Below are positions 1,319-3,530 of a stretch of 64,000 bases of DNA, one piece after another. Positions within the stretch are counted from its first letter, which is position 1; each line of letters opens with the position of its first letter. This stretch comes from Candidatus Anaerobiospirillum pullicola (GTDB lineage Bacteria > Pseudomonadota > Gammaproteobacteria > Enterobacterales > Succinivibrionaceae): contig JAHLFE010000044.1 of NCBI GenBank assembly GCA_018884035.1, positions 1 through 64,000 of the forward strand, in the 5' to 3' direction. Below the pieces are notes generated by a model that was not told where the DNA came from, did no database searches, and saw nothing but the letters and a program-made list of their open reading frames with translations. The translations under genes were made by a program, and so were the position numbers.

Positions 1319-2479
1319 AAGAGAGTTTCCTACAAAAAAGCGCAAGAGTGGGGGCGGCCCTAATCGCGTACCGCAGGATTAGCTGTAAGAGCTGCCGACA
1401 GTGGTAGCCTAAATTTGAGCGGGGCTACGTGTCATCGAACACAGAGAGGCGCCGCTTACAGGAGAGATGGCACTGTTCTCCGGAAGTTTAAGGAGGGCAG
1501 TGTCGTCAGTGTTGGAAGTAGCGGTAGTGGCGCTGGTGGCGATAATGTTTTAGGGGCGCTACCTGCTGCGACAGGAGGCGTCGCGGCGGAGTGCTGTGGT
1601 TTCCTTTTTGTGGTAAGGGTAGCCAAAAGCAGAGGCTATTTTATCATCATTGATGGGAGCAAATGGCGGGAGTGCTGGGGGAGGAAGCAGGCGAGGGAGA
1701 AAAATGCGCAGCAAGCAGGCTTGGGGCAAAGGTAAAAAGGCGGCGGCACAGAACAGAGGGAAGCTGCTTAGTGCTGGACATGGGCAGGCTGTGGCTTTAT
1801 GGTGCAAGGGGCCCAGTCCTGACTGACCTTGCCATGTCAAGCCCAGACAAACTAGCCCAGAGCACAACGCACTCTTGAGGAGTAGGTGCCATCAAGGCGC
1901 AGCCACCACCACCACCACCTCCACCTTCAGCGACAACTCTAGGGTTCCTCAAGTTGATAATTTTCTTTACCTAAAGTTGTAACCCTCTCTGTGGTAGGTT
2001 TAGGAGCTTCTCAAGCTTGCCTCAAGATAGAACGTTTTATCGCGCGTTATACCATGTTCCTCACTACACATATGGGGAGGTAAGGCTGCCTGTTATAGAG
2101 GGTGATACTTTGAGTAATCTTTATACAAAAGGCGCGTCCAGACACCCTGTCTGACAAATTTTCTGAAAGCCTGTATGACACCCTGATGAGCTTCTCTGCA
2201 CAGGCACCAATGCTCCTGCTCAAATGCGTCCCAAGGCAGTCCTGACCTCTGATGAGGTAGGCTATAGGTGGCCACATTCCAAGATACCCTAGAGCCACCA
2301 AGAACCATCCATGTTCTATTCCGCGCCCCAGAGCTTCAAAGGGTGTTGACGCTCACCAAGAGCACCATAAAGCCATGGTGGGCTTAAGTTCGCGTGTATG
2401 GGCAGGGTGTGGTGGTGGCTTAGACACCAAACGCTGAGCAGAGCTTATTTATCCCTGCCTCAGCTGACTCTGACAAAAA
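1319..2479. other. Intergenic region between ispB and the rplU promoter
   Basis: About 1.1 kb without a convincing gene. The short open frames overlap one another and lack ribosome-binding sites. A stretch at 2093-2260 on the minus strand has protein-like composition (W, H, K and E rich) but no start or family I recognise, so it may be a decayed gene. A 47-bp sequence at 2354-2400 recurs at 44219-44265. Confidence 0.5.
2354..2400 (+). repeat. Dispersed 47-bp intergenic repeat, copy A
   Basis: Matches 44219-44265 at 41 of 47 positions without gaps by hand count, including an identical first 20 bases and a shared GGGCTTAAGTT core. Both copies lie between genes, so this is probably a dispersed non-coding repeat or a remnant of one. 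Confidence 0.6.
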
Positions 2480-2501
2480 TCAAGTTTGCACTCTGCTTTT
2501 G

Positions 2502-2510
2502 TGGTATAAT
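2502..2510 (+). promoter_or_regulatory. Promoter for rplU-rpmA (extended -10)
   Basis: TGGTATAAT is a perfect -10 hexamer (2505-2510) with an upstream TGn extension. No good -35 element lies 17 bases upstream, which fits an extended -10 promoter. Transcription from about 2517 would give a leader of roughly 420 nt before rplU. Confidence 0.6.
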
Positions 2511-2516
2511 TTCGCG

Positions 2517-2938
2517 GTTTTGAAAGTGACGTTTGTTTGCTTTTCAAACACTGAGTGTGTAAGATATGCGCTCACTATTAGCCTAGAAAAGGTGTTGATT
2601 CCCTGCGAGTCAAGCTTGTAGTCGAAAGACTAGAATTGTTGCAGACGGCCGATTGCTGGCCTGTGGTTATCACGTCTCTGCAAGCTCCTTATCCACACAT
2701 TGCCCACAGCGCAGACTGTGGCGGTGCCCCCTAGACATCTCTAGGATGTGTCCCTGTGGACATCAACAACGCGGCGCGGATAAGACGGCTTAATTTGAAC
2801 GATCGGCGTTAAGCCTCGGATGCGAGTGTTTCGCTCAGATCTGTCATCTACTAGCTTTACGTTCGGATGTGCCTTGTAGGCGAGAATGATTTGATTTGAG
2901 CGGGAGCGCAAACTCCTGCGTTCAAACGGAGTTTGAGC
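2517..2938 (+). promoter_or_regulatory. Structured 5' leader of rplU with SD-masking hairpin
   Basis: This long non-coding leader contains several hairpins. CCACAG/CTGTGG lies around 2704-2721, and CCTAGA/TCTAGG and GTCC/GGAC lie around 2731-2763. The most telling is an 8-bp perfect stem, CAAACTCC (2909-2916) with GGAGTTTG (2928-2935), which encloses the rplU Shine-Dalgarno GGAG (2928-2931) three bases before the ATG. Masking the SD is the classical design for feedback control of ribosomal protein synthesis. That L21 or L27 is the ligand is inference. Confidence 0.6.
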
Positions 2939-3250
2939 ATGTACGCAGTTATTTTTTGCGGTGGCAAGCAGCACAAGGTCTCCGAGGGTGAGAAGCTTCG
3001 CGTTGAGCTCCTCAAGGCCGAAAAAGACAGCACTGTTGAGTTAGATAAGGTTCTCTTAATCTCTGATGGCTCCAACGTTAAGGTTGGTGCTCCTTACATC
3101 GAGGGCGCTAAGGTCAGCGCTAAGGTGTTAGGTGAGGTCGCCGGCGAGAAGATCAAGATCGTGAAGTTCCGTCGTCGTAAGCACCATCAGAAGGTTACTG
3201 GCCACCGTCAGTGGTTCACCGAATTAGAGATCACCGGTATTACCGGTTAG
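2939..3250 (+). CDS. rplU: 50S ribosomal protein L21
   Basis: Large-subunit ribosomal protein that binds 23S rRNA; 103 aa, the usual length. It begins [14 protein letters not shown], the conserved L21 start, and carries the basic [16 protein letters not shown] segment near residues 76-91. A TTG two codons upstream would also be open, but the ATG at 2939 sits 7 bases after GGAG and matches the family start. It is followed after 13 bases by rpmA, the standard L21-L27 pair. Its Shine-Dalgarno lies in one arm of a stable hairpin, so translation is probably regulated. Confidence 0.97.
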
Positions 3251-3263
3251 GAGATAAGGATCC

Positions 3264-3530
3264 ATGGCACACAAGAAAGCCGGCGGTTCCGTTCGTAACG
3301 GTCGCGATTCTCAGGCCCAACGTCTTGGTGTAAAGCGTTATGCTGGTGAGTTAGTAACCGCTGGTAGCATTATCGTGCGTCAGCGTGGTACCCACTTCCA
3401 CCCAGGCGCAAATGTCGGTATTGGCAAGGATGACACTCTGTTTGCCAAGAAGACTGGCAAGGTTTCGTTTGTGACTCGTGGTCCTAAGGGCCGCAAGTTC
3501 GTGCAGATCATTGCTGACGACGCTGCATAA
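3264..3530 (+). CDS. rpmA: 50S ribosomal protein L27
   Basis: Large-subunit protein whose N-terminal tail reaches the peptidyl-transferase centre. At 88 aa it has the normal length. The start [16 protein letters not shown] and the later [20 protein letters not shown] are diagnostic. It begins 13 bases after rplU with AGGAG-type spacing and is almost certainly cotranscribed with it. A hairpin with a T-rich tail lies between it and obgE, so readthrough into obgE may be partial. Confidence 0.97.

Follow-up and report, generated by a model that had tools for sequence, protein, structure and literature searches.

A candidate cis-regulatory leader RNA upstream of rplU in Anaerobiospirillum, with mutually exclusive pairings at the Shine-Dalgarno sequence

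The window analyzed here, a stretch of 64,000 nucleotides (positions 1 to 64,000 of contig JAHLFE010000044.1), belongs to an Anaerobiospirillum (Succinivibrionaceae) genome. It carries rplU, followed by rpmA and cgtA, with ispB lying divergently upstream of rplU (Table 1). Among the upstream regions of relatives, the conserved rplU start is the ATG at 2939; the open reading frame listing begins at TTG 2933. No convincing gene occupies the roughly 1.1 kb that separate ispB from the rplU promoter (window 1346-2500), a region that includes a CCACCACCACCACCACC run near 1900.

The rplU transcript is expected to start near 2517, because an extended -10 element is conserved in nine Anaerobiospirillum species and the sequence 5' of this element cannot be aligned. 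A generic promoter scan returned no -35/-10 pair. With the start predicted from the -10, the leader measures about 422 nt, which bears out the roughly 420 nt proposed in the initial annotation, and the several further hairpins that it described in the leader are present. Leaders in Anaerobiospirillum span roughly 330-500 nt, with conservation beginning at the extended -10, and in most other inspected family members with the hairpin directly 5' of the Shine-Dalgarno (SD) sequence (hairpin A), a promoter-like sequence lies some 100 nt from rplU.

Table 1. Features of the rplU leader and start region, in window coordinates
Feature	Position	Strand	Sequence, evidence or remark
Extended -10	2502..2510	+	TGGTATAAT; kept in nine Anaerobiospirillum species; expected transcription start ~2517
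Helix P1	2516..2549	+	GGTTTTGAAAGT...ACTTTTCAAAC type; RNAalifold consensus of 10 leaders; one- and two-sided changes keep pairs
Hairpin P2	2552..2574	+	TGAGTG/CGCTCA; alignment and consensus fold; nearly invariant, so uninformative for covariation
Conserved block with small hairpin	2607..2635	+	GAGTCAAGCT..TGGTCGAAAGGCTAGA; alignment, consensus fold
Helix Px, 5' strand	2801..2804	+	GATC; pairs with 2838-2841
Candidate pseudoknot strand	2806..2814	+	conserved RCGTYAAGC; complements 2854-2862 bar one central mismatch
Helix Py	2815..2826	+	CTCG/CGAG; closes variable-length insert in relatives
Invariant motif	2828..2833	+	GTTTCG; alignment
Helix Px, 3' strand	2838..2841	+	GATC; register left free in test; one-base shift in two species
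Hairpin Pz	2845..2869	+	CATCT/GGATG; leader comparison
Candidate pseudoknot partner	2854..2862	+	conserved GCTTTACGT in hairpin loop; alignment
Small hairpin	2871..2881	+	GCC-TTGTA-GGC; pairs retained, both-sided changes
Hairpin A	2900..2919	+	GCGGGAG-CGCAAA-CTCCTGC, directly 5' of SD; arms 2900-2906/2913-2919
Stem B	2909..2935	+	CAAACTCC 2909-2916 / GGAGTTTG 2928-2935; the earlier-noted stem; excludes A and C
Hairpin C	2920..2938	+	GTTCAAAC (2920-2927)-GGA-GTTTGAGC (2931-2938); GGA of SD in triloop
Shine-Dalgarno	2928..2931	+	GGAG; 7 nt ahead of ATG
rplU	2939..3250	+	ribosomal protein L21; then rpmA (L27) 3264-3530

Conservation in the long leaders falls into a 5' domain (2513-2635) and a 3' domain (2820-2938), with a middle of variable length between them; these comparisons draw on only nine or ten distinct leaders from one genus. 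A model of the 5' domain gave a strong match at rplU in 10/10 genomes of the genus and in 0/47 other genomes. The 3'-domain model likewise matched rplU in 10/10 genus genomes and returned only weak matches, most of them at rplU, in the other 47. Models of hairpin A and of the two domains detected no strong copies of leader elements elsewhere in the searched genomes, and the leader models select a single site in each genome of the genus. As a whole, the leader is more stable than its shuffles (z from -1.1 to -5.6 in nine species); the isolated segment 2795-2885 of the window has the same stability as shuffled sequence (z 0.0). The leader of A. succiniciproducens (L037) contains an insertion of about 165 nt between P2 and the GAGTCAAGCT..GGCTAGA block, about 88-300 nt after the -10. 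The 5'-domain model finds a second, weak match within this insertion (E 0.04), so part of the 5' domain may be duplicated there.

Several helices of the leader vary in ways that keep their pairs. In an unadjusted MAFFT alignment, Py ranked first of 44 candidate 4-bp helices for covariation. Helix Px did not stand out in that alignment but was spotted by eye and then tested with its register free; within the genus it pairs as GAUC/GAUC, as AACC-like/GGUU, or as CGUG/CACG, three types in all, and native combinations of its strands beat swapped ones (p 0.001), with swaps between forms pairing worst. RCGTYAAGC (2806-2814) may pair with GCTTTACGT (2854-2862) in a pseudoknot, backed mainly by one-sided changes, whose candidate outer pair occurs as A-U, G-U, and G-C types. 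In most species the AGCTT loop (2853-2857) could instead pair with AAGCT (2611-2615), but this site is nearly palindromic and the pairing would compete with the pseudoknot; we do not claim it. Sequence comparison shows the upstream part of the Anaerobiospirillum leader to be a structured RNA specific to the genus, with helices that covary, and this upstream domain is likely to be a functional cis-acting RNA.

We also searched for other identities of the leader. It has no family match in Rfam, where raising the threshold to E 10 yields three chance-level matches to unrelated families, and the Rfam L21 leader covariance model does not match it. A consensus scan identified no intrinsic terminator in the leader before rplU, which argues against a transcription attenuator of that kind, and no short open reading frame with a plausible SD recurs across species as a leader peptide would. 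Autoregulatory leaders often, though not always, resemble the rRNA site of their protein. The 23S rRNA of order-level relatives gave only short matches, in a search in which one comparison used the wrong strand segment and the searched genomes contained no full 23S of the genus. Three sister species carry GGAGCGTT, a match to a conserved 23S segment, but chance predicts such short matches and mimicry is not claimed. The GTTAAGC motif presumably resembles part of the 23S terminal helix and is likewise short enough for chance.

At the 3' end of the leader, the initial annotation had drawn a perfect 8-bp stem with an 11-nt loop over the SD, and this stem (stem B) is exact in the sequence. When the SD was held fixed and the 60 nt upstream were shuffled with dinucleotides preserved, a perfect Watson-Crick complement of at least 8 beginning at the SD arose in only 0.02% of shuffles (P ~2e-4), so the complementarity exceeds chance. 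Stem B hides the SD and excludes both neighboring hairpins: it shares CUCC (2913-2916) with the 3' arm of hairpin A and GUUUG with hairpin C. As isolated stems, A reaches -11.8 kcal/mol versus -10.0 kcal/mol for B, and A and C together (-19.5 kcal/mol) form the local minimum-energy fold. Stem B has a pair probability of 0-0.04 in short segments of the window, A and B are equal at 0.4 each in a 251-nt segment, and both lie near 0.2 in the leader with the start of rplU. Thermodynamics alone thus leaves A versus B unsettled, though B is not favored. Hairpin C occurs in Anaerobiospirillum only and never varies within the genus, so covariation cannot speak for or against it.

We collected 158 loci, most with the rplU upstream region, and compared 33 distinct Succinivibrionaceae sequences from the clade carrying hairpin A. 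Hairpin A keeps its pairs in 95% of cells of the unadjusted MAFFT alignment, with changes on both sides, and in 99% with manual assignment of the arms; it becomes weaker when arms are swapped from one species to another (native versus swapped, z -6.7). A covariance model of A plus the SD finds one strong match per genome, always at rplU, in 40/57 family genomes and 10/14 genera. Stem B, by comparison, is paired in 83% of cells with no measure clearly departing from column shuffles, and its swap test (z -3.1) is similar to a control with the SD strand reversed (z -2.9). In L116, L121, L124, L127, and L022, the arms of A are altered, mostly together, and B is broken or weak. Complementarity for B is retained in most species having a CUCC arm, where the B duplex reaches -10.6 versus -7.9 kcal/mol with shuffled loop and post-SD bases (p 1e-4, from related sequences), and B lies within the computed minimum of about 10 of the 33 leaders. 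In three sister species (L033, L036, L038), the SD reads GGGG instead of GGAG, and stem B pairing is retained as U-G.

The check for compensatory changes proposed with the initial annotation, run over the 33 leaders, goes against stem B as drawn, because there is no covariation beyond controls and B is lost in several species that keep A. Pair counts and the swap test with its reversed-strand control led us to reject it as a conserved structure, and the claim that the SD-hiding stem is the conserved regulatory form is unsupported. It survives as a possible alternative OFF state, a role that we consider doubtful. A perfect stem over an SD, a tempting reading, need not be a structure maintained by selection. 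Comparison of relatives shows hairpin A, preserved through compensatory changes, to be the conserved element in Succinivibrionaceae, and it is very likely functional. In Anaerobiospirillum, all of 2899-2938, spacer included, is near-invariant.

Other Gammaproteobacteria have a hairpin of unrelated sequence a few nucleotides ahead of the rplU SD, at the same place as hairpin A, and the E. coli K-12 leader fits this pattern with a hairpin just 5' of its SD. Over the 45 nt before the SD, the mean folding z is -2.64 in the family and -1.89 in 60 other gammaproteobacterial leaders, a sample that leans to relatives of the query; three control segments farther upstream give means of -0.24 to +0.18. 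These values suggest that what Gammaproteobacteria conserve ahead of rplU is a hairpin in a set position and not any one sequence. In L052/L118, the SD context GGAGTTTGA occurs a second time within the hairpin upstream of rplU, in its 5' arm and loop. Many rplU leaders outside Succinivibrionaceae show a -10-like sequence, GCGCCC, the hairpin, and the SD in that order, and the GC-rich segment after the -10 resembles stringently controlled promoters.

The anatomy of the leader suggests that rplU translation is controlled at its start site, with hairpin A holding the anti-SD strand. The best explanation in our judgment, and a moderately probable one, is that stem B is one of three competing pairings that end a structured 5' leader of rplU-rpmA. 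Hairpin A would form first during transcription and occupy the CUCC strand; with CUCC locked away, the SD would be free for the ribosome or, in Anaerobiospirillum, for pairing in hairpin C. Were A opened, the freed CUCC could capture the SD as stem B and reduce initiation. The upstream domain would bias the choice between A and B in response to a signal, with L21 or L27 as the leading candidate; that either protein is the ligand is a guess by analogy with other ribosomal protein leaders, plausible but on balance unlikely. Equally tentative is the fullest version of this scheme, in which a new, genus-specific pseudoknotted leader would respond to L21, L27, or some other signal of ribosome assembly by shifting the rplU start site between an open state (A) and a closed one (B or C).

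The proposal of the initial annotation, in which regulation runs through stem B itself as an SD-sequestering autoregulatory site stabilized by L21 or L27, draws on the improbability of a perfect 8-bp stem over the SD (P ~2e-4), on complementarity that most CUCC-arm species retain at more than shuffled strength, and on its presence in the computed minimum of some 10 of 33 relatives. Yet the local minimum in the window is A plus C, no covariation is specific to B, species retaining A have lost it, and E. coli is reportedly negative for such feedback (PMC10931766); we regard this proposal as improbable. A constitutive, ligand-free hairpin A, which would insulate the SD from upstream RNA or protect the 5' UTR, with the SD complementarity a by-product of the SD-like GGGAG in its 5' arm, fits the unrelated hairpins at the same rplU position across the class, which lack an anti-SD in the inspected leaders, and the reported lack of feedback regulation in E. 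coli (PMC10931766). This alternative is a real possibility that we would stop short of calling probable; it leaves unexplained the genus-specific conserved leader domains of Anaerobiospirillum and the near-invariance of 2899-2938, spacer included. Lastly, the upstream domain could be a small RNA in its own right, made from the shared promoter, processed off the rplU mRNA, and acting in trans. The domain does begin at the promoter, exists as a single copy and, with inserts that vary, shows strong conservation, but the consensus scan places no intrinsic terminator before rplU, and conservation continues through hairpins A and C to the rplU start codon, so that we consider a separate RNA very unlikely.

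Among these readings, the competing-pairings leader would, if true, add a candidate ribosomal protein leader in front of rplU-rpmA, an operon that in E. coli is reportedly free of feedback control (as related in PMC10931766). The leader RNA probably sets the amounts of L21 and L27 made. Taken whole, it makes a good candidate for a new cis-regulatory RNA; all of it but hairpin A is restricted to a single genus, and a structured rplU leader RNA of this kind has apparently not been described before.

Ribosomal protein leaders of Gammaproteobacteria include those of S15/rpsO and the S4/alpha operon. Like these, the Anaerobiospirillum leader is a structured 5' UTR of a ribosomal protein operon, as placed by the predicted promoter, whose fold can affect the SD, with covariation supporting conserved structure in hairpin A, Px, and Py; unlike them, it has a candidate ligand only and no Rfam family match. 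The part of the initial annotation that saw here the form of a ribosomal protein autoregulatory site holds for a leader that is long, structured, under selection, similar to ribosomal protein leaders, and without an Rfam match; it fails for the stem that was named as the conserved structure. The L21 leader of Rfam lies upstream of rplU in Firmicutes, in the same position as ours, but its model does not match our sequence. The accompanying statement that no L21 leader of this form had been described in Gammaproteobacteria was close to correct: a single computational prediction of 2009 placed a motif in the Shewanella rplU 5' UTR (rank 163, score 0.956; PMC2659441), the nearest prior report that we found among open-licence papers. 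It concerns the same gene and class and is also a 5' UTR structure. A passage in PMC10931766 citing Aseev et al. 2016 reports E. coli rplU-rpmA as unresponsive to its own products. The two leaders share a hairpin just 5' of the SD, whereas the E. coli leader is much shorter, judging by the position of its -10-like sequence, and is described in that passage as without translational feedback. If the proposed switch is real, it would give Anaerobiospirillum the feedback control of rplU-rpmA that E. coli reportedly lacks.
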